A program made the position numbers and the translations under genes. Of a stretch of 64,000 nucleotides of DNA, positions 6,990 to 58,980 are shown piece by piece (position 1 is the first letter of the stretch; the number at the start of each line of letters is the position of its first letter). Location: the NCBI GenBank assembly GCA_015490715.1, contig WFXH01000102.1, positions 1 to 64,000 of the forward strand, read 5' to 3'. The notes beneath the pieces were generated by a model, which was given only the letters and a program-made list of their open reading frames with translations, did not search any database and was not told the origin of the DNA. This DNA is from Saprospiraceae bacterium (GTDB lineage Bacteria > Bacteroidota > Bacteroidia > Chitinophagales > Saprospiraceae).

Positions 6990-9900
6990 TTAGGGGGCGC
7001 GTATTAAGACGAGCCGTCCCACTTGGATCGTCCTATCGGCGTGGGAGAGGCGGAAGAGGTAGGTTCCGGAAGGTAAGTTGTCGGGAAGTTTTATGCTATA
7101 TGTAGCGCGCTCTTCGTAGATCGGCAGCACGTATTGGTAGATGAGCTGGCCGTGGAGGTCGTACAGGGTCCAGTCGTAGCTGCCGGGGGCAGGTGATGTC
7201 GTTTCGAGGTAGATCTGCCCATAGCATGGATTGGGGAAGATGCGGTGGAGAGTGGGCGTGTCGTTTGTCGCAGGGCAGGGGACTACTTCGATGCGATCAG
7301 TTTCGAACTGCGTATTTACGGAGAGCGGTGTCAGTGCGGCTTCATCGATGAAGATCTCTGGTGGTACTTGGGATGCGATGAGGATTGTAAAGAGCGTGTC
7401 GGTGCTTGTACATTCGACCGGGTGAGCGGCATTCCAGGCGATGAATACCCTGTGGTCGACGATGTGGTGATACTCGTCCACTAATGGGAGGGTTACAGGC
7501 AAGATGGCGCGTATTGTGCCGGAGGATGTAAATAGGGATAGCTGTAAAGCGGAGGTGGGTTGGGTAGAAGTGCTGAAGAAGTGTACGGCGTAGAGCTCGT
7601 CGTCGACGCGTTGGGTGACGTAGTACCACTGCCATGTCGATTGGGGCTGGCTACGAGTTTTAATAAAATCGCCCGACACATCGCCCATTTTGATGCCTTT
7701 CCAGTGGATGGTGATGACGCTGTCCCGGGGGTTGGGCACGAAGTTATGGGTATTGGGATGCCTTCTGAGCGCATTGAGATCGTCGAAGTCGGTCGACGAG
7801 AGATAGAGTTTCCAGGAGGGGACGTGGCGAAAGCGGGACCATTTGTTGAGCAAGAGTTTTCGGATGATGCCGATATCTGCCACGGAGAGGTCGCCGCTGT
7901 TGTTGACATCGCCGGCAATGATTTGCCATGCCTTCGTGATCGGCCGAATGCCGAGGAGGTGATATTGGATGAGCTGCAGGTCGAGTACGGAAAGGCCTCT
8001 TAAGTATTGATGCTCATGGCGAAGGGTAATGGTATACTGTTGGCCCGGATGTTTTTGTACTCGTAGGTCGTACGGGCTGTTGTATTGGCCTGTGGCGAGT
8101 GTGTCGGGGCCGCGTGGGGTAGACCGCTGTACGACGATGTGTACACGACGGAGTGGTCGGCCCCCTAAGGAGGTGACGCTGCCGTGGAGACGTAGCAAGT
8201 GTCCATTGCAATGGTTATTGGCCTGGATTTGCACCTGGGCGGTACACGAGGCGATGTTGCCTGCCTCGTCACGGACATATACGGTCACCGTGGTGTCCAG
8301 TATGCGTTGTCCCTTGAGATCCGCACAGTTAAATTGGACGCTGTCGACGTACTGATTGGGGCGAAAGCTGTAGCGCAGGGCACTTGTATCGGTGCAGTTG
8401 TCGGAGCTTTGGAGTATGAAATGGTCGACGGGCAGCGTGATGGTCCCTGATTCGGGCATGATGACGGTGTTGATTTGATCGCGGCAATAGACGGTAGGAG
8501 GTTTGCAATCGCGTACGGTGATGCGTTGGGTACAGGTAGCGACATTGCCACAATCGTCTTCGACGCGCCATTCGACGCGATGGGTGCCGAGGGGTAGAAT
8601 GATCGTGCTATTGGTATAGGGATTCCAGTTGCTCCATTGGCCAGCTTGGTCGATATCTATTCGGTAGTACCATTTCATGGCCTCTTGAGGCGTGCAATCG
8701 TCTACAGCAGTGGGTTGGTAGACAAATTGACCGCTGCATGGGGATGCACTGCTCACGGTTTCATACAGACACAGTACAGTATCTCTACAAAAGGGGCTAT
8801 CGATTACGGGAGGTTGGGAGTTGACGACACGGATGATTTGCGTATCCTGCCATATGCCTGCAGTGTGTTTGTCGTACCGACACCAATCGATGACGGTCCA
8901 CTCGCGGGCAATGGTAAAGCAGGCCGAATCAGCCTGGTAGTAATAGCGGTCGGTGTAGGTGACCTGTACGTCTGCACAGCCCGTATTGCGCAGGGCGTAG
9001 GCGCTGTCGAGGCGCGTCGAGGTTGAGGGATCGAGCTCGGCATCGTCTGAGCAACTCAAGGTTATCGGCGGGTCGATGATATCTGCTGGCCAGTGGATGT
9101 CGGCCTCGGAAAAGGGATGACGGTTGACGAAGGTGATGCGCTGGATAGCCGAGTCGACATTGCCCGCAGGATCCGTCGCTGTAAAGCGCCGTATCAGCAC
9201 ACCGCTACCACAGTGCAACGAGTGCTGTATGCTTTCTTCCACGACGACACGATCGCAGTTGTCTATTACATAACCGTCCAATCCCATGTATTGGCGTCGG
9301 CCGTCGATGGTGAGAAAGATGCTATCACGCTGGTCGCGGTGCATGGCAATACGGCCGAATAGGGCAGCTGTACTGTCGATATCCCACGAAAAGTCGCAGG
9401 GAACGGTCATGTCGGGTGGCGGCACGATGCGCGGAGGCGTTTTGTCGTCGACGCGCACTTCGACCATGCAAACCGAGGAGTTGCCGGCGGCATCAAAGAC
9501 GGCGAGTTCGACCATGATGCGTTTGTCGGCATCATCACAGCAGAAGTGTATGGTGGGCGCAAAGTCGTTGGTAGAACTACAGGTGGATGCGCTGTCCACG
9601 CGTCGCGCTAAGAAGTGGTTAATGCCACAATTGTCCCGACTGCCGTCGTCTAAGGCTTGAGCATCTAAGATGTGTTGGCCATCGTCGGAGAGTGTGACCA
9701 CGGTGTGATTTTCGCAGACGATGTCGGGGGGGCGCCTATCGGCCACGTAAAACATTACAGTACAACTCGCCTTATTGCCGCAGTCGTCAACGATTTCATA
9801 CTCCAGCCAATGACAGCCCGTATCGAGTTGACTCAAGACGAATGGAGCTTCGTCGGGGCGGCGGTAATCTCCAACGAGACGCTTGTTACGTGGATCGGGC

Positions 9901-13091: not shown

Positions 13092-13559
13092 ATGCGAAGA
13101 AAACGACCAAAGCCAAGAGTCATACCGCCGGATCCCGTCTACAACGATCCGATGGTCATGAAATTTATCAACAACATCATGCGTCGAGGGAAGAAGGCCC
13201 TTGCCATGCGCATCTTTTACGATGCCATGGACATCATCAAAAAGCGCACGGACGAAAATCCCTACGAAATTTGGAAAAAGGCCCTCGAAAACGCCACTCC
13301 GTACTTGGAGGTGCGTTCGCGGCGTATTGGTGGAGCGACCTTTCAGATACCGACTGAAATCCCTGAAAACCGCCGTATCTCGATTGGTATGAAATGGTTG
13401 ATACAATACGCCAAGCAGCGCCACGGCAAGGGAATGTCGGAAAAACTCGCCGCCGAAATCATCGCCGCATCCAACAACGAAGGCGGAGCCGTCAAGCGCA
13501 AAAACGAAATGCATCGTATGGCCGAAGCCAACCGCGCCTTTGCGCACTTTAGAGTGTGA
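13092..13559 (+). CDS. rpsG: 30S ribosomal protein S7
   Basis: Primary 16S rRNA 3'-domain binder, 155 aa. It starts MRRKRPKPRVIPPDP and contains MVMKFINNIMRRGKK and the conserved GGATFQIPTEI region. It lies 16 nt after rpsL. The coding sequence includes an exact copy of the dispersed GTATGAAATGGT motif at 13387-13398 (codons of GMKWL). Confidence 0.98.
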   Translation: MRRKRPKPRVIPPDPVYNDPMVMKFINNIMRRGKKALAMRIFYDAMDIIKKRTDENPYEIWKKALENATPYLEVRSRRIGGATFQIPTEIPENRRISIGMKWLIQYAKQRHGKGMSEKLAAEIIAASNNEGGAVKRKNEMHRMAEANRAFAHFRV

Positions 13560-16090: not shown

Positions 16091-16110
16091 TTTTGGTAGT
16101 ATAAAATGGT
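16091..16110 (+). repeat. 20-bp repeat, copy 1 (inverted partner at 19991)
   Basis: TTTTGGTAGTATAAAATGGT in the rpsJ-rplC gap, seven bases before the rplC GTG. Its exact reverse complement lies at 19991-20010 between rpsC and rplP. It carries the long form GTATAAAATGGT (16099-16110) of the dispersed motif. Confidence 0.8.
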
Positions 16111-18835: not shown

Positions 18836-19264
18836 ATGGAAGCAAAAGCCATCTTGAGAAATTGTCCCATGTCGGCGCGCAAAATGCGACTCGTCGCCGA
18901 TATCGTCCGCGGCAAAGAGGTCACCGATGCGCTCTATACCCTCAAGTTTACGCGAAAGAAGGCCGCCTCCATCCTCGAAAAACTCCTCCTATCCGCCGTG
19001 GCGAACTGGGAATACAAAAACGACAATACCGTCGATGCCGACGACTATAAACTCATCATCAAAAAACTCCTCGTCGATCAAGCCACTCCCCTCAAGCGCT
19101 TTCGACCAGCGCCCATGGGTCGGGCTATGCCCTACAAAAAACACCGCTGCCACATCACCATCGTCATCGAAAATAAAGTGCCACTGCCCACCGAACAGGA
19201 GCAGTCCGAACAAGTAGCCGAGACAGTGTCCGAAGAAACCGCAGAAAAGACAGATGAACAATAA
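18836..19264 (+). CDS. rplV: 50S ribosomal protein L22 with acidic tail
   Basis: 142 aa, longer than the usual 110-115. The core (RNCPMSARKMRLVADIVRG... PMGRAMPYKKHRCHITIVI) is normal, including the tunnel-lining hairpin. After about residue 118 a Glu/Gln/Thr-rich tail (EQEQSEQVAETVSEE) is added. Its stop region overlaps the inverted motif pair at 19264-19281. Confidence 0.96.
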   Translation: MEAKAILRNCPMSARKMRLVADIVRGKEVTDALYTLKFTRKKAASILEKLLLSAVANWEYKNDNTVDADDYKLIIKKLLVDQATPLKRFRPAPMGRAMPYKKHRCHITIVIENKVPLPTEQEQSEQVAETVSEETAEKTDEQ

Positions 19265-19281
19265 TTTCATACGTATAAAAT
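19264..19281. repeat. Abutting inverted pair of dispersed motifs before rpsC
   Basis: ATTTCATAC (19264-19272) is followed directly by GTATAAAAT (19273-19281), an 18-bp near-perfect palindrome with one mismatched pair, ending eight bases before the rpsC ATG. Confidence 0.65.
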
Positions 19282-19289
19282 CGTAGCAT

Positions 19290-19990: not shown

Positions 19991-20010
19991 ACCATTTTAT
20001 ACTACCAAAA
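19991..20010 (-). repeat. 20-bp repeat, copy 2 (inverted partner at 16091)
   Basis: ACCATTTTATACTACCAAAA, the exact reverse complement of 16091-16110, five bases after the rpsC stop and immediately before the internal promoter box at 20026. Confidence 0.8.
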
Positions 20011-33376: not shown

Positions 33377-34551
33377 TGGCGAAGGGAAAGGTGGGCATCA
33401 TCGGTGCAGGGACGATGGGGGCAGGCATTGCCCAAGTAGCTGCCCTCGCTGGTCATCGCGTTGTACTCATCGATATTTTACAAGACCAGTTAAATCGTGC
33501 ACAGAAGACGATCCACCATTTCATACAGAGAGCCGTAGAAAAGGGCAAGCTCTCCGAGCATGTCGCCGAGGCGGCCCTTGCATCATTGAGTTACACCACC
33601 GATTATAATGTGCTCACCGATGCCGTGTTGGTCATCGAAGCTGTCGTCGAAGACGAAGGGGTCAAAGCAGCCGTGTTGGAGGAGGTGTCCGGGCACGTAA
33701 GTCAGGAGTGCATCATTGCGACCAACACTTCATCGCTATCGGTGACGGCACTTTCGAGGAATGTGTCGGCACCAGAGCGTTTTCTGGGGCTGCACTTTTT
33801 CAATCCCGCCCCACTGATGGCATTGGTTGAAGTGGCTCCGACAGTAGCAACCTCTGAAGTGGTGTGTCGTCGTGCCGAACAGATGATGCGCGACTGGGGA
33901 AAGGAGGCGGTGCGTACGCAGGATTTGCCCGGGTTTATCGTCAATCGCATAGCGCGCCCCTATTACGGCGAAGCGCTTTGTATCGTCGAAGAGCGCCTCG
34001 CCACGGTTGAGCAGGTCGATCGCGCCATGAAATCGATCGGCGGCTTCCGCATGGGCCCCTTCGAACTGATGGATCTCATCGGACTGGATGTCAACTACGC
34101 GGTCTCCGAACAGGTCTTCCAAGCCTTTTACTATGATCCACGATATCGCCCATCGCTCTTGCAGAAGAAGATGGTCGAGGCTGGGTGGCTCGGCAAGAAG
34201 ACAGGGAAGGGGTTTTACACCTACGCATCGGAGCCCCCTGTGCCTACGCTATCGTGGCCCGTTCAACAGCCTATTGGCGATGAGGAGATCTTTATGCGCA
34301 TCCTATCGATGTTGATCAACGAGGCAGCTGATGCCGTAGTACGGGGGGTAGCCTCGAAAGAAGATGTCGAAACAGCGATGACGCGTGGGGTCAATTACCC
34401 TAAGGGATTGCTCCACTGGGCCGATGAAATCGGCATTCGTACGGTCGTCCGCCAACTGGATGCCCTTTTTGAGCGCTATCGCGACATGCGGTACCGATGT
34501 AGTCCGCTATTGCGCCAGATGGCGGCGAAGGATGCGCGTTTTTTTCATTGA
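33376..34551 (+). CDS. paaH: 3-hydroxyacyl-CoA dehydrogenase, PaaH-like
   Basis: 391-aa NAD-dependent dehydrogenase; in the phenylacetate pathway the homologue oxidises 3-hydroxyadipyl-CoA. N-terminal Rossmann motif [15 protein letters not shown], catalytic His in [17 protein letters not shown], then the C-terminal dimer domain with [16 protein letters not shown] and a second, shorter repeat ([13 protein letters not shown]). The TGATG overlap shows it is translationally coupled to the PaaG-like gene, and the pair is the last two steps before thiolysis. Confidence 0.88.
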
Positions 34552-34611: not shown

Positions 34612-34671
34612 ATAAAATGGGACGAATGAATCCGTGGAACCATTTTAGCGGTGTGTTTGGTGGTATGAAAT
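34612..34671. repeat. Cluster of three dispersed-motif copies in the tdh leader
   Basis: ATAAAATGG (34612-34620), the inverted CCATTTTA (34640-34647) and GTATGAAAT (34663-34671). The first two can pair with each other over about seven bases. All lie between the promoter and the tdh ATG. Confidence 0.5.
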
Positions 34672-34690
34672 TGTGAAAGTGATTGGGTAA

Positions 34691-42716: not shown

Positions 42717-42736
42717 GTATGAAATGGTTGGCTCCG
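42717..42736 (+). repeat. Dispersed motif copy, long form, between fadA and queG
   Basis: GTATGAAATGGTTGGCTCCG, matching the extended consensus GTATGAAATGGTTGGCGCC in all but one of the first nineteen bases. It is followed by a small hairpin CGCC/GGCG. It lies in the 63-nt gap between convergent genes. Confidence 0.6.
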
Positions 42737-43803: not shown

Positions 43804-46092
43804 TCAATTGAGGATCTGGAGGCGAGCAAATTTGAGCATGATGCGCTTGGGTGGGCCGGGGATTTCGTCAAACTTGATGGTGGCGACGCGTTTGTCGCGC
43901 ACGCCGTCGATGGTGAGGACTTTTCCCACGCCGAATTGTAGGTGCAGCACGCGTTGGCCGGTGCGCACTTCTTCGGGAGGGCTTGGTGTAAATGATTGGG
44001 GGTCGATTTTGACGGCTGGGGAGCGCTGTTGGGGAGGAGTACCCGAAATTTTAGCGCGAGGCGCGGTGACGAAATGCTCTTGTATGTCGGGGATGACTTT
44101 GACCTTGCCCACGGGAAATTCGATGGATTCTTCAGGGAGTTCGCGGATAAAACGACTGGGTTCGTTGTATACCTGGCGTCCCCAGAGGTACCGCGATTCG
44201 GCGTGACTGAGGATGAGGAAGCGCTTTGCACGGGTGATGGCTACGTAAAAGAGCCGGCGTTCTTCTTCGATCTCGCGTGGATTGTGGATCGTCTGAAAGC
44301 TGGGGAATAGATTTTCTTCCAGTCCGACGACAAAGACGGCTTCAAACTCGAGGCCCTTGGCGGAGTGGACGGTCATGAGGCTGACGTAGTCGGCATCATC
44401 GTCTTTGAGGTCGATATCCGTCAGCAGGGCGATGTGTTGGAGATAGCTGTATAGGGAGCGGTCGTCGACTTCTGCTCCGTAGGGCACTTCTTCGGCTTCG
44501 ACGAATTCCTTGATGCCGTCGAGGAGGGCGAGGACGTTTTGGAGGCGTTCGACGCCTTCGGTGGAGTCGTCGCGCTTGAGTTCGCGCTCTAAGCCAGAGA
44601 GTTTAAAAGCGCGATACGCCACGGTGTAGGCGTCTTCGGTTTGGGCGAGCTTGTGGAGGCGTTGGATAAGATGGGACAATTCGGCGGCGGCTTTGTGGGC
44701 TTTGGTGGGCAGGGCTGCTTCGTGCATCGCTCGCCACATGCTGATGCCGTGACTGCGCGCAAAGTCGAGTATGCGCTCGACACTTGCCTTGCCGATGCCC
44801 CGCTTGGGGTAGTTGATGACGCGCTTGAGCGCTTCGCTGTCGTGGGGGTTGACGATGAGGCGCAGGTAGGCGAGCATGTCTTTGACTTCCTTGCGCTGGT
44901 AGAAGGTGATGCCGCCAAAGATTTTATACGGAATATTCAGCCTTCGGAGGTATTCTTCGAAGACGCGAGACAGGGCATTCATGCGGTAGAGCACGGCGAT
45001 ATCCCTGTAGCGGAGGTGGTAGCGGTCGCATATTTCCTGGATTTTTTGCGCTACGCGCCTGCCCTCTTCGCCTTCGTTGGTATTGGTCATGATGTGGATC
45101 TTAGCTCCTTCGCCCCTATCGGTCCAGATGGACTTTTCGATTTGGCGGCGGTTGTAGGAGATGAGCTTGTTGGCCGCTTGGACGATGTGAGCGGTGGAGC
45201 GGTAGTTTTGTTCGAGTTTGATGACTTTGACGTTGTGGTAGTCTTTTTGGAAGCTGAGGATGTTGCTGATGTCGGCGCCGCGAAAGGCGTAGATACTCTG
45301 GGCGTCGTCGCCGACGATGCAGATGTTTTCGGGGCTTTCGGGGTAGAGGGTGAGCTTTTTGAGTATGCGGTATTGGAGGTGGTTGGTGTCTTGAAATTCG
45401 TCGACGTGTGTGTATTGAAAGAGCTGGCGGTATTTGTCGAGCACGTCGGGGTGGGCGTCGAGGAGGTGGTAGAAGTAATAGAGCAGGTCGTCGAAGTCCA
45501 TGGCCGCTGCACTGCGGCAGTATTCGACGTATTTGTGGTAGATGAGGTAGGTATGCGGGCGCCGGCTGGCCTCATCGGCCTGACGCAGACGCGGTATGCG
45601 CTCGTATTCTTCGGGGGAGATGAGACGCGACTTGGCGAGGGAGATGCGCGTGCGGAGGGCATTGGGAGCATATACCTGTGGGTCGAGTTTGAGCTCCTGG
45701 AGGATTTCGCGGATGAGGTTTTTGCTGTCTTCGGTGTCGTAAATCGTAAAGTGCGAGGGATAACCGATGCGGTGTGCCTCGCGTCGCAAGATGCGAGCAA
45801 ATACGGAGTGGAAGGTGCCCATCCACAGGCTATTGGCCTGGGGCCCAACGAGGGCGGTGATGCGCTCGCGCATCTCTCGTGCCGCCTTGTTGGTAAACGT
45901 CAGCGCCAAAATGCGGTGGGGCTGCACGTTACGCCGTAGCAAGTGCGCTATGCGATACGTCAATACCCGCGTCTTTCCCGATCCAGGCCCCGCTATGACC
46001 ATGACGGGCCCTTCGGTGGCCTCTACCGCCTCGCGCTGCCGCGGATTGAGATCTCGCAAAAAGTCCATCTCCTCCATCAGAGCTGCAAGCAT
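43804..46092 (-). CDS. pcrA: ATP-dependent DNA helicase UvrD/PcrA family
   Basis: 762-aa superfamily 1 3'-5' helicase for repair and replication restart. Q motif and Walker A: LNPRQREAVEATEGPVMVIA then GPGSGKTRVL; motif II VDEFQDTN, motif III GDDAQSIYAFRGAD, motif IV EQNYRST, motif V MTVHSAKGLEFEAVFVVGLE and motif VI VAITRAKRFL. The C-terminal Tudor-like part (VLHLQFGVGKVLTIDG) is that of PcrA. ATG 46092 is chosen over 46107 because a TAATTTTG -7 box at 46105-46112 overlaps the earlier ATG. Confidence 0.95.
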   Translation of the reverse strand: MLAALMEEMDFLRDLNPRQREAVEATEGPVMVIAGPGSGKTRVLTYRIAHLLRRNVQPHRILALTFTNKAAREMRERITALVGPQANSLWMGTFHSVFARILRREAHRIGYPSHFTIYDTEDSKNLIREILQELKLDPQVYAPNALRTRISLAKSRLISPEEYERIPRLRQADEASRRPHTYLIYHKYVEYCRSAAAMDFDDLLYYFYHLLDAHPDVLDKYRQLFQYTHVDEFQDTNHLQYRILKKLTLYPESPENICIVGDDAQSIYAFRGADISNILSFQKDYHNVKVIKLEQNYRSTAHIVQAANKLISYNRRQIEKSIWTDRGEGAKIHIMTNTNEGEEGRRVAQKIQEICDRYHLRYRDIAVLYRMNALSRVFEEYLRRLNIPYKIFGGITFYQRKEVKDMLAYLRLIVNPHDSEALKRVINYPKRGIGKASVERILDFARSHGISMWRAMHEAALPTKAHKAAAELSHLIQRLHKLAQTEDAYTVAYRAFKLSGLERELKRDDSTEGVERLQNVLALLDGIKEFVEAEEVPYGAEVDDRSLYSYLQHIALLTDIDLKDDDADYVSLMTVHSAKGLEFEAVFVVGLEENLFPSFQTIHNPREIEEERRLFYVAITRAKRFLILSHAESRYLWGRQVYNEPSRFIRELPEESIEFPVGKVKVIPDIQEHFVTAPRAKISGTPPQQRSPAVKIDPQSFTPSPPEEVRTGQRVLHLQFGVGKVLTIDGVRDKRVATIKFDEIPGPPKRIMLKFARLQILN

Positions 46093-46104
46093 TTCATCGA
46101 AAAA

Positions 46105-46112
46105 CAAAATTA
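46105..46112 (-). promoter_or_regulatory. Bacteroidota -7 box before pcrA
   Basis: TAATTTTG on the minus strand fits TAnnTTTG and would start transcription near 46098, six bases before the ATG at 46092. Confidence 0.4.
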
Positions 46113-46169
46113 CGGATTTTCATAATATGTGTTTCGCTTTTTCATCTTTGGAAGAGACTATGTTCACGC

Positions 46170-46293
46170 GTAGTATGAAATGGTGCTGTACATTTTTGTA
46201 CACGAAAACTGTCGTCTATCGAGGACATGGGGTCTATATCGGTGAAAAACCCTTCGGGATACTTTGATGGCGCCGACCAACCATTTCATACCC
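46170..46293. repeat. 124-bp element bounded by inverted GTATGAAATGGT copies
   Basis: GTATGAAATGGT (46173-46184) and its reverse complement ACCATTTCATAC (46280-46291) are perfect 12-bp terminal inverted repeats about 95 bp apart. Inside are the hairpin TGTACA-TTTT-TGTACA (46187-46202) and a GGCGCC (46269-46274) next to the right arm, as in the element at 2693. It fills the gap between pcrA and the membrane protein at 46303. Confidence 0.65.
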
Positions 46294-46302
46294 GAAAAAA
46301 AG

Positions 46303-46800
46303 CTAACGCTTCGATGCGTACGTACGATAAAGGGAATAGAGGAGGACAAAGGGGAGGGTCGATAGGCCGACAAAGGCAAGTGCATAGCTCAATACGAGCT
46401 GAAATTGAGCGTATCGTGCATAGGAAGGAATGCTGTCGGCATGCAAGTGGGTAAAGAGTTCGTAAAATCCCCGATCCTGGACGTAAATGCTGACGCGCAA
46501 AAAGCTGATGTAGGTGTAGAGCAGGGCGATGATGGATAAGATGATGAGTGCTGCGCGGGCCAGGGGTGATCGTAAATAGAGGATATAGCGGTGTGTGAAG
46601 AGCATGCGTGTAGCGTGGAAGCCCATGAGAAAGGCAAGGGAATTGTCGAAGTAAAGGGGATAAGACTGTGGTGATGTCAAGAGAGGTTGAAACATGCCAA
46701 GTAAAAGTAAGAGGGAAAATGCCCACCAGAGGCATTCGATGAGGATGGCGAGTATGCGTTCGTTGGGAGTGGCCGATGCGGAGGAGGAGTGTTTGTTCAT
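46303..46800 (-). CDS. Hypothetical membrane protein, 165 aa
   Basis: I do not recognise a family. A short polar N-terminus (MNKHSSSASATPNER) is followed by about four membrane helices: ILIECLWWAFSLLLLLGMF, SLAFLMGFHATRMLF, ARAALIILSIIALLYTYISF and VLSYALAFVGLSTLPFVLLY. A soluble loop of about 40 residues with acidic and aromatic residues lies between helices 3 and 4. It follows the PAP2-like gene by 10 nt, so the two are likely cotranscribed from the gcdH promoter. Confidence 0.75.
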   Translation of the reverse strand: MNKHSSSASATPNERILAILIECLWWAFSLLLLLGMFQPLLTSPQSYPLYFDNSLAFLMGFHATRMLFTHRYILYLRSPLARAALIILSIIALLYTYISFLRVSIYVQDRGFYELFTHLHADSIPSYARYAQFQLVLSYALAFVGLSTLPFVLLYSLYRTYASKR

Positions 46801-50210: not shown

Positions 50211-51839
50211 TCAATACAAGACGGCAAACGCTCGCGAGCGAATCTCGTAATCGTTTCCCAGTATAAAATAGTACACGCCTTTGGGCAGTGGTGGCAGGGA
50301 TAGGGTATAGCTGTGGACATCTTTTAAGAGAGGGTAAAAATCCGAATGGACGAGTACTCTACCCCTTGTATCGACAATGCGCGCGAAATGCCGCCCGTAG
50401 GTAGGTGTGTTAAAAAGGACGTATACCTGGTGGGGCATTGGAGAATAAAATTGAAGTATTTCCAATTGCGTAGGCCCGTCGTGGCAATATTGGGACTTAA
50501 TGTGGCTAAAGATGCGATAGAGGTTTAGCTTACCCCCGGAGAGCAGTCGATTTTGCAGTGTTGCTATGGGCTCTGCGTTTCGTAGGATGAGGTCTTTGAC
50601 ATATCGCGCAGCGCTATCTGGAGAGGCCTTTAGGTGAGCGATATGGTCATTGCATCGCACGGTATAGATGAGTTGTATTGCGCCACTGACAAAGGGAGAG
50701 GCGTAGGATGTACCTGTCCCTGCATCGTACGGGGATCCCGATCCGTAGGAGGTGCTCCAGATGGATTTGCCGGGCGCGCCGATGTCGATGGATTTTTTGC
50801 CGTAGGCAGCGTTGTCGATGATCTGGCTGCTCTGGTTGAGGGCGGTGACGCATATGAGATAGGGCGAGGTACAAGCACAGGGTAGATCACCTTCAACATC
50901 GACATCGACATCGAGATTGGCAGTAGAAGCGACGGTCAGCACGCCCTCGTGTCCGAGGCTGTCGATGATGGCACAGATAAGGGGAAACTCATCTTGTCTG
51001 GCGCGCTCTCTACCGAGTGAGAAGTTGATACCCACGACATAGGCCCCCACCTGGCCGTCGGTGCGATTGTACAGTTGGCGTTGATGCCATACGTATTCGA
51101 GTGCGGCATAGAGGTCGGCGTCTTGTATTTGGTTGCTCTTTCCGAGGGAGACGAGCAGTAGCTGGCCGTTCCAGTTGACGCCCGTGATGCCGATACCGTT
51201 ATTGCCCCTTGCAGCGATGATGCCTGCTACGCGCGTACCGTGTCGGTGTTTGTAGAGCTTGTCGTTGGCGGTGGTGAGGTTGTAGCCGAGATAGTCGTCT
51301 ACATAGCCGTTGTTGTCGTTGTCGATGCTATCGTCCGGTATTTCGGCGGTGTTGCGATAGATGGCCTCTTGAAGGTCTTCGTGTGTCCAGTCAAATCCGG
51401 CGTCGATGACGGCGATAAGGGGCACAGGTGTGTCGGCAATACCCGTACTCAAGTCCCATGCCCGCGGAGCTTCGATATCGCGAAGCCCCCATTGCAGGTC
51501 AAACATCGGATCATCGGGCTGTCGGCGGAGCTCGAGTGAGCCGTTTTTCTGTGCACGACAAACGGCGGGCAGCGATCGAAGTCGTTCTAGAAGTGTTGTG
51601 TCGAGTCCCCCTTCAACAACGATTTCATATATGGGCGTAAATCTTCCGATCTTTTTCCATCGGAGTGTTTGGTAGGCTGTATGCGTATTTCGGGTATGAA
51701 ATTGTGCGAGCAGGTCTTCTATTTGGGCACCGGGGCAAAGACGGACGAGCACCGAATGTTGGCTGTAGAGACCTTGCGCGGTGAGCAGTAGAGTAGCGGT
51801 GAAAAAAAATATTCGGGTTAGGGGATACCTGTAGAGCAT
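50211..51839 (-). CDS. Secreted subtilisin-like serine protease (S8), probable T9SS cargo
   Basis: 542-aa protease. The signal peptide is MLYRYPLTRIFFFTATLLLT plus AQGLYSQ, which fixes the start at 51839. A propeptide-like region (about 25-115) precedes the catalytic domain: Asp in VIDAGFDWTHEDL, His in HRHGTRVAGIIAA, Ser in GTGTSYASPFVSG. An acidic EF-hand-like stretch DDSIDNDNNGYVDDYLG lies between Asp and His. The final 80 residues (IVDTRGRVLVHSDF... LPKGVYYFILGN) look like a T9SS sorting domain. Last gene of the minus-strand run starting at dcd, 34 nt after ribA. Confidence 0.88.
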   Translation of the reverse strand: MLYRYPLTRIFFFTATLLLTAQGLYSQHSVLVRLCPGAQIEDLLAQFHTRNTHTAYQTLRWKKIGRFTPIYEIVVEGGLDTTLLERLRSLPAVCRAQKNGSLELRRQPDDPMFDLQWGLRDIEAPRAWDLSTGIADTPVPLIAVIDAGFDWTHEDLQEAIYRNTAEIPDDSIDNDNNGYVDDYLGYNLTTANDKLYKHRHGTRVAGIIAARGNNGIGITGVNWNGQLLLVSLGKSNQIQDADLYAALEYVWHQRQLYNRTDGQVGAYVVGINFSLGRERARQDEFPLICAIIDSLGHEGVLTVASTANLDVDVDVEGDLPCACTSPYLICVTALNQSSQIIDNAAYGKKSIDIGAPGKSIWSTSYGSGSPYDAGTGTSYASPFVSGAIQLIYTVRCNDHIAHLKASPDSAARYVKDLILRNAEPIATLQNRLLSGGKLNLYRIFSHIKSQYCHDGPTQLEILQFYSPMPHQVYVLFNTPTYGRHFARIVDTRGRVLVHSDFYPLLKDVHSYTLSLPPLPKGVYYFILGNDYEIRSRAFAVLY

Positions 51840-52498: not shown

Positions 52499-52882
52499 TT
52501 AATGCCATTTGAGGGTCGTCGACCCAAATTTCAAGCCGAGCCAAACACCTAAAATACAACTTAGCAGACTCAAACTAATGTATTGCAGGGCTTTGGCCCA
52601 GAGGTTTTGATGCACAAGGGAATAGTTTTCAAATGCAAAGGTCGAAAACGTGCTAAATCCGCCGCAAAATCCGACGATAGCGAAAGCGTACCAGTGTCGA
52701 CTGTGCAAATGCCCCTGAATGGCGGGCAGCAACCACCATCCGAGTAAAAAACTGGCTGCAAAATTGGCGCCCAAGGTGCCCCAGGGCAGTCCCCACAGGC
52801 GAATGGTCGAAAGCCATTGGCCGAGCTGATAGCGAGCTAAACTGCCTAAGCCCCCTCCTATGAATATCAACAACCATTTCAT
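52499..52882 (-). CDS. crcB: Fluoride channel CrcB/FluC
   Basis: 127-aa four-helix membrane protein forming a dual-topology dimer that exports fluoride. GGGLGSLARYQLGQWL, GTLGANFAASFLLGW with the conserved Asn, and the break-helix GFCGGFSTFSTFAFE with the Phe box are all present. Its ATG falls inside an exact inverted copy of the dispersed motif (52873-52884), so its first codons are made from that repeat sequence. No fluoride riboswitch was recognised upstream. Confidence 0.93.
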   Translation of the reverse strand: MKWLLIFIGGGLGSLARYQLGQWLSTIRLWGLPWGTLGANFAASFLLGWWLLPAIQGHLHSRHWYAFAIVGFCGGFSTFSTFAFENYSLVHQNLWAKALQYISLSLLSCILGVWLGLKFGSTTLKWH

Positions 52883-52904
52883 ACTCAGAAAAGTCGATGC
52901 AATT

Positions 52905-58914: not shown

Positions 58915-58980
58915 AGTGGTATTGCCTAAAATATCTGTATGAAATGGTTAGCGCCGTGAAGAAATGATTAGGCGACCACT
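58915..58980. repeat. 66-nt stem-loop repeat element carrying the dispersed motif
   Basis: AGTGGT (58915-58920) pairs with ACCACT (58975-58980) and GCCTAA (58924-58929) with TTAGGC (58968-58973). The loop holds GTATGAAATGGTTAGCGCC (58937-58955), followed by a diverged second copy of GAAATGRTTAGSCG. This is the clearest folded single element of the family. Confidence 0.65.

Follow-up and report, generated by a model that had tools for sequence, protein, structure and literature searches.

The window analyzed here (64,000 nucleotides; positions 1 to 64,000, forward strand, of contig WFXH01000102.1, Saprospiraceae bacterium assembly GCA_015490715.1) contains, in the gap between a membrane-protein gene and pcrA, two copies of a 12-bp word facing each other as an inverted pair. 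The features of this locus are as follows.

43804-46107, - strand: pcrA
46101-46135 (approximate), - strand: conserved block 5' of pcrA
46173-46184, + strand: left arm, word copy GTATGAAATGGT; 12/12 kept in the sister species
46187-46202, no strand: hairpin TGTACA-TTTT-TGTACA (by eye)
46280-46291, - strand: right arm, word copy GTATGAAATGGT; 12/12 kept in the sister species
46303-46800, - strand: membrane-protein gene

Direct reading of the window confirmed that the arms are an exact 12-bp inverted pair, as the original prediction had it, with an outer span of 119 bp and a noncoding spacer of 95 bp. The length of 124 bp first given to this unit (46170-46293) included 3 + 2 unmatched bases beyond the arms. 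The predicted internal hairpin is also present and folds as a 6-bp stem. Folding of the 119-bp unit was better than that of shuffled sequences on either strand (z, approximately -3.4), a value that includes the 12-bp closing stem formed by the two arms. A terminator at the pcrA gap was considered and rejected because no T-run was seen by eye 3' of the hairpin. The window had no Rfam match at the gathering threshold and no tRNA, and the letters around the arms revealed no visible target duplication, in agreement with the earlier reading. Outside the word pair, the block 5' of pcrA differs by one base in the sister species and contains TAATTTTG, which fits the Bacteroidetes -7 box (TAnnTTTG); this block is probably the pcrA promoter.

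The unit had been likened to a MITE, with the caveat that the arms might instead be a pair of sites. A search for full-length copies returned the unit and its flanks as a single match in the genome from which the window derives (G000; 2.45 Mb, 115 contigs), and the other 30 matches were pieces of 16 to 35 bp that nearly all lay on the arm word. Because the unit is single-copy, it is not a repeated element; what repeats is the arm word. Pairs of this word occur in all four orientations and at variable spacings, from 14 bp upward, and the pcrA pair is thus one among several such neighbors. A fixed paired unit of 107 to 110 bp was suggested by individual spacings (107 and 110 bp in this genome; 110 and 110 bp in the sister species) and was rejected, given that pairs otherwise vary.

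The closest comparison is with G001, a metagenome-assembled genome (MAG) of the same genus (95% complete), which we refer to as the sister species. Its pcrA gap shows no empty site: both arms are identical there, whereas the 95-bp interior and the DNA outside the arms are much changed (PcrA, 97% identical). In the one relative that could be compared, the outcome named at the outset as refuting a MITE-like unit was thus obtained, the interior being unique and the gap between the arms kept (107 versus 110 bp). A second genus of the family that carries the word (described below) lacks the word pair at pcrA and is too distant to reveal an empty site. At the corresponding position, two bases in from one arm, the sister species also has a hairpin, with different letters (L141, approximately 1405-1423); in these two sequences, the stem looks as if it were kept by paired changes.

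An insertion of mobile DNA, either a MITE with 12-bp terminal repeats or a REP/REPIN moved by a RAYT transposase, is therefore hardly credible. It would account for short repeats facing each other across a noncoding 95-bp spacer with hairpins, as in REPINs and MITEs, but not for a single-copy unit, for pairs in every orientation and spacing, for sites retained inside genes, or for a sister species that keeps both arms around a diverged interior. The RAYT family Y1_Tnp was not matched in G000; one match was found in each of G001 (partial, 45 bits), G065, and G165. On the basis of the single-copy unit, the kept arms, the varied pairs, and the missing RAYT, both MITE and REPIN were rejected for this locus. 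The caveat was borne out in that each arm is one copy of a dispersed word. The pcrA pair is two word sites in one gap, and the pairing itself probably does nothing special. The hairpin was also rejected as a regular partner of the word: both species have one at the pcrA pair, but copies generally lack one, and 40-nt stretches beside intergenic copies fold about as well as other intergenic 40-mers.

The consensus of the word, GTATRAAATNGT, has 674 copies in the G000 genome (350 and 324 by strand), and the same consensus read backwards, used as a control, has 0. The exact form GTATGAAATGGT has 169 copies (94 forward, 75 reverse; control, 0). In the sister species, there are 626 consensus copies (313 on each strand; control, 1). 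A sample of 818 kb of the G000 genome contained 227 copies against approximately 1.0 expected under an order-3 Markov model (i.e., an approximately 200-fold over-representation, about equal on both strands). In 445 kb of this genome, the word was the top over-represented 12-mer family, and all listed over-represented 12-mers, together with the leading 8-mers and 10-mers, were forms or overlaps of the GTATRAAATNGT family. The stretches sampled were chosen mostly for carrying word copies (G000 and the first G001 batch), and their densities (0.278, 0.247, and 0.184 per kb) match those of the whole genomes (0.275, 0.26, and 0.18 per kb). In print, a text search matched the word in two papers, both unrelated by title (a grape gene and a Drosophila enhancer).

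Within the window, the arm 12-mer with up to two mismatches occurs 29 times (4.3 expected; none of 100 shuffles reached 29), and the consensus occurs 16 times. Apart from the two arms, the consensus copies are as follows; identities marked "by eye" are resemblances.

2769-2780, + strand: GTATGAAATGGT; intergenic
8414-8425, + strand: GTATGAAATGGT; antisense in a large CDS; sister species 12/12
9790-9801, - strand: GTATGAAATCGT; sense in the same large CDS as the 8414-8425 copy; sister species 12/12
13387-13398, + strand: GTATGAAATGGT; sense in a CDS resembling ribosomal protein S7 (by eye)
16099-16110, + strand: GTATAAAATGGT; just 5' of a gene resembling ribosomal protein L3 (by eye)
19273-19284, + strand: GTATAAAATCGT; between two ribosomal-protein-like genes (by eye); directly abutting a near-copy at 19261-19272 (-)
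19991-20002, - strand: GTATAAAATGGT; called intergenic
33515-33526, - strand: GTATGAAATGGT; antisense in a CDS
34663-34674, + strand: GTATGAAATTGT; 16 bp 5' of a gene start
42717-42728, + strand: GTATGAAATGGT; between a thiolase and a queG-like gene (by eye); R position G to A in the sister species
50261-50272, + strand: GTATAAAATAGT; antisense in a CDS; sister species 12/12
51694-51705, + strand: GTATGAAATTGT; antisense in a CDS; sister species 12/12
52873-52884, - strand: GTATGAAATGGT; over the start codon of a crcB-like gene (by eye), reading GT-ATG-AAA-TGG-T; sister species 12/12
58937-58948, + strand: GTATGAAATGGT; intergenic; R position changed in the sister species

The word tolerates change at some positions and not at others. 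One-mismatch forms were in 7- to 16-fold excess at positions 1 to 3, 9, 11, and 12, whereas those at positions 4 and 6 to 8 showed no excess (observed/expected, 0 to 1.1). Position 5 takes A or G (C/T forms, 7 seen versus 1.2 expected). The signal extends beyond the 12 bp as a T-rich tract followed by GTATRAAATSGT and DSDHS: the flanks are T-rich at approximately -10 to -3, carry C/G at +10, +14, and +17, nearly exclude C at +13 and +15, and are alike in intergenic and coding copies. A strict TRAAA core with graded edges is, as far as sequence can tell, the footprint of a protein-like DNA reader.

Retention between the two species was assessed in a 161-kb alignment with 89% DNA identity in the aligned stretches. 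Of 43 fully aligned sites of the G000 genome, 39 keep the consensus in the sister species (gene bodies, 16/16; starts, 2/2; intergenic, 21/25), including all 8 antisense copies within genes. Identity over all 12 positions was observed at 32 of the 43 sites, versus 32% of all coding 12-mers and 25% of intergenic ones. In the reverse direction, with up to three unaligned columns allowed, 39 of 47 sister-species sites were kept. All 12 losses in both directions were single changes at positions 1, 2, 9, 11, and 12, never in the TRAAA core, and the seven sites that were changed yet kept had changes only at R or N. The retention of antisense copies inside genes is hard to explain except by selection or drive acting on the DNA word.

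The gene context of the 227 sampled copies was classified with gene calls from our own hexamer-based script, in which start codons are rough: 106 were intergenic, 20 lay over a start codon, and 101 were in gene bodies (39 sense, 62 antisense). The word is approximately tenfold denser between genes than inside them (intergenic DNA, approximately 71 kb of the sample). Within genes, it nevertheless exceeds what synonymous-codon shuffles yield, with 33 sense and 62 antisense copies seen versus 4.0 and 3.1 expected (60 shuffles in the same genome; maxima, 9 sense and 7 antisense) and, in the sister species, 24 and 28 versus 2.7 and 1.2. Word density was 0.39 per kb in the least codon-typical fifth of genes and 0.29 per kb in the most typical. 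The spacing of copies (coefficient of variation, 0.83 to 1.0) gave no clear evidence of evenness.

These positions bear on whether the word marks gene starts as a promoter, an operator, or a (leaderless) translation-start element, a role that we regard as improbable. Within 25 bp of start codons, there were 43 sense copies versus 5 antisense (15 versus 0 in the sister species), as such an element would have it. ATGAAA, which lies within the word, makes a good start, and the bias is partly due to its being a natural one. All 20 start-overlapping copies in G000 are sense and read GT-ATG-AAA, and the genus of G000 and G001 may have co-opted the word as start context. Relative to gene starts, this overlapping minority alone is oriented. 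From 200 to 75 bp upstream, by contrast, orientation is neutral (36 versus 33), and the zone from 75 to 25 bp, where core promoters would be expected, is thinned approximately threefold (approximately 0.8 copies per kb of noncoding DNA versus 2.4 further upstream), less so in the sister species (1.3 versus 2.0 per kb). Of the 227 copies, the 101 in gene bodies are more often antisense than sense, and the antisense ones were kept in every case compared (8/8). None of 70 sampled sites in the second genus overlaps a start codon.

The word stands out in only 4 of 398 genomes of the family, which belong to two genera: that of G000 and G001 (674 and 626 copies) and that of G065 and G165 (690 and 512). 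The remaining family genomes had at most 29 copies as read from the table, with controls in the same range. The exact word, counted across 396 genomes of the order in a sample that left out G001 and G165, occurred 169 and 502 times in two genomes and at most 4 times elsewhere. PcrA was 62 and 61% identical to that of the second genus and at most 57% identical to the others in a comparison of PcrA identities across 24 genomes. The two word-bearing genera are probably sisters, judging from PcrA; with the second genus the closest, the word most simply arose once, in an ancestor that they share.

In the second genus, the word has a dialect of its own: 90% of the intergenic copies have G at -1, position 5 (R) is fixed as G, and position 10 (N) is mostly G. 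None of nine mapped coding sites was common to both genera (alignments below 40% identity were dropped). The word is thus conserved while its places are not, a pattern that sets it apart from operators and structural RNAs and that uptake sequences share. Further over-represented 12-mers were also observed in G065 (L168-L187), e.g., GTGTGTATTACA, TGTGCTTTGTGC, and GTTTTAACCGTG, which look like separate local repeats.

A dispersed, clade-specific word with a strict core could also be a Chi-like recombination or repair signal (AddAB/RecBCD) or a self-marker against defense nucleases. Known Chi sites are 5 to 8 bp long and strand biased towards replication, whereas this word spans at least 12 bp, is equally frequent on both strands (350/324), and is approximately tenfold denser between genes than within them. 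We consider this explanation about as improbable as that of a promoter or start element. The promoter or operator, Chi-like, and mobile-element explanations all fit worse than either of the two that follow.

The first of these takes the word to be the site bound by an abundant chromosome-organizing or replication/repair protein (e.g., a specific nucleoid protein, an occlusion factor, or a condensin loader), with sites every 3 to 4 kb or so kept by selection. Copies on both strands and in coding and intergenic DNA, a strict core, retention between species, and the absence of type IV pilus ATPases are all consistent with it, and an organizer with dense sites would be expected to leave much the same sequence evidence. 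MatP, SlmA, and Noc have a few dozen sites each, however, far below the approximately 674 found here, and the complete turnover of sites between genera (0/9) and the clustering of sites in gaps also argue against it. Such a role is unlikely, if less so than the preceding ones, and is the chief rival to uptake.

The second, to which we give an even chance on the pattern of copies described above, is that the arms belong to a word spread over the whole genome and recognized in the manner of a DNA uptake sequence, the kind of tag by which gonococci and Haemophilus tell their own DNA. A sequence-specific DNA-binding protein would read the word and would belong to a DNA import route, so that cells would prefer the DNA of their kin; biased uptake followed by recombination would then accumulate and mend the word wherever it did little harm. 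Over-representation, presence on both strands and in both coding and noncoding DNA (denser in the latter), a strict core, and clade dialects match what is expected of uptake sequences, and we counted the 8/8 antisense retention, the turnover of sites with a persistent word, and the ComEC, DprA, and ComEA-like genes described below for this reading. Several observations speak against it, including the pilus and HHH results given below. The sense cluster at start codons in the genus of G000 and G001 is not predicted by uptake, the spacing of copies is not clearly even, and the fifths of codon typicality showed no scarcity of the word near atypical genes, although it should be missing from foreign DNA.

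The uptake-sequence systems known so far rely on type IV pili, and to our knowledge, uptake words come only from two proteobacterial families, both with such pili. The machine of these systems, a type IV pilus with a word-binding minor pilin, was not found as judged by PF00437 (type IV pilus/type II secretion system [T2SS] ATPase), which had no match over the cut-off in the four word-bearing genomes; partial matches below the cut-off were present in two of them and absent from the other two. Without a type IV pilus ATPase, the receptor would have to be of another kind if the word acts in uptake. ComEC was detected in all four word-bearing genomes and DprA (PF02481) in three (G000, G065, and G165). 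DprA had no match in the 95% complete genome of G001, which may reflect an assembly gap. A gene for a ComEA-like protein with multiple helix-hairpin-helix (HHH) motifs adjoins ComEC in all four, and HHH proteins were found in 16 of 16 genomes tested, with or without the word. ComEC, DprA, and HHH proteins are common, and with HHH proteins in all 16 genomes, none of the candidate readers is specific to the word-bearing clade. The ComEC gene and the adjoining membrane-anchored multi-HHH gene are located at L109:17016-19982 (G000, contig 34) and L176:14645-17736 (G065), and a fructose-bisphosphatase-like gene (by eye) adjoins them in both genera.

The Pasteurellaceae uptake signal sequence (USS) has AT-rich side tracts beside its core, which the T-rich tract of the present word (approximately -10 to -3) resembles. 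The two differ in sequence, phylum, and machinery, and the word is less dense, with no even spacing shown. The Neisseriaceae DNA uptake sequence (DUS) is likewise unrelated in sequence; it has thousands of copies versus approximately 674 here, the word (0.28 per kb) is less dense than the DUS in Neisseriaceae, and the word-bearing genomes, in which the uptake role is putative, had no detectable type IV pilus ATPase. The likenesses lie elsewhere. According to passages of PMC3630211, the DUS is a nonpalindromic sequence of 10 to 12 bp, the most over-represented one, found on both strands and in coding and intergenic DNA; it has an inviolate core with tolerant edges and genus dialects that track phylogeny, and it is absent from other lineages of the family, all of which parallels the present word. 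Passages of PMC1939737 describe uptake sequences as nonpalindromic and dispersed over coding and noncoding DNA, with an excess in the latter and no orientation bias; dispersal over coding and intergenic DNA without orientation bias is what the USS shares with the word. In the same passages, approximately 10% of uptake sequences form inverted pairs, and no intracellular binder of uptake sequences is reported to have been found.

Our literature search, which covered few subscription papers, found no uptake word established in Bacteroidota. Within this phylum, natural competence is known: according to PMC8459023, transformation of Riemerella anatipestifer is lost when transposons disrupt ComEC, DprA, a helix-hairpin-helix protein predicted to be periplasmic, or outer-membrane candidates. 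Riemerella (Flavobacteriaceae) thus shares ComEC, DprA, and a helix-hairpin-helix protein with the present genomes. Riemerella columbina prefers its own DNA according to parts of PMC7965970, in which the k-mers described are A/T-rich low-complexity words of 7 to 10 bp at approximately 2 to 8 times expectation, with their function left open. These differ from the complex, approximately 200-fold-enriched 12-mer found here.

We propose, tentatively and at slightly less than even confidence, that a pilus-independent uptake word may have evolved in a clade of two Saprospiraceae genera, independently of Neisseriaceae and Pasteurellaceae and with a dialect in each genus, where it would bias the import of kin DNA and would itself be spread and mended by that bias. 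If true, this would be a third, independent case of an uptake word, with its own dialects, in a phylum whose competent members take in DNA with no known pili and in which one species favors its own DNA. It would offer a natural replicate in the debate about whether these words reflect selection for sex among kin or uptake bias alone, and it would point to a novel DNA receptor. Even if the reader were a chromosome-organizing protein, a word kept this strictly in both coding strands would be unusual.
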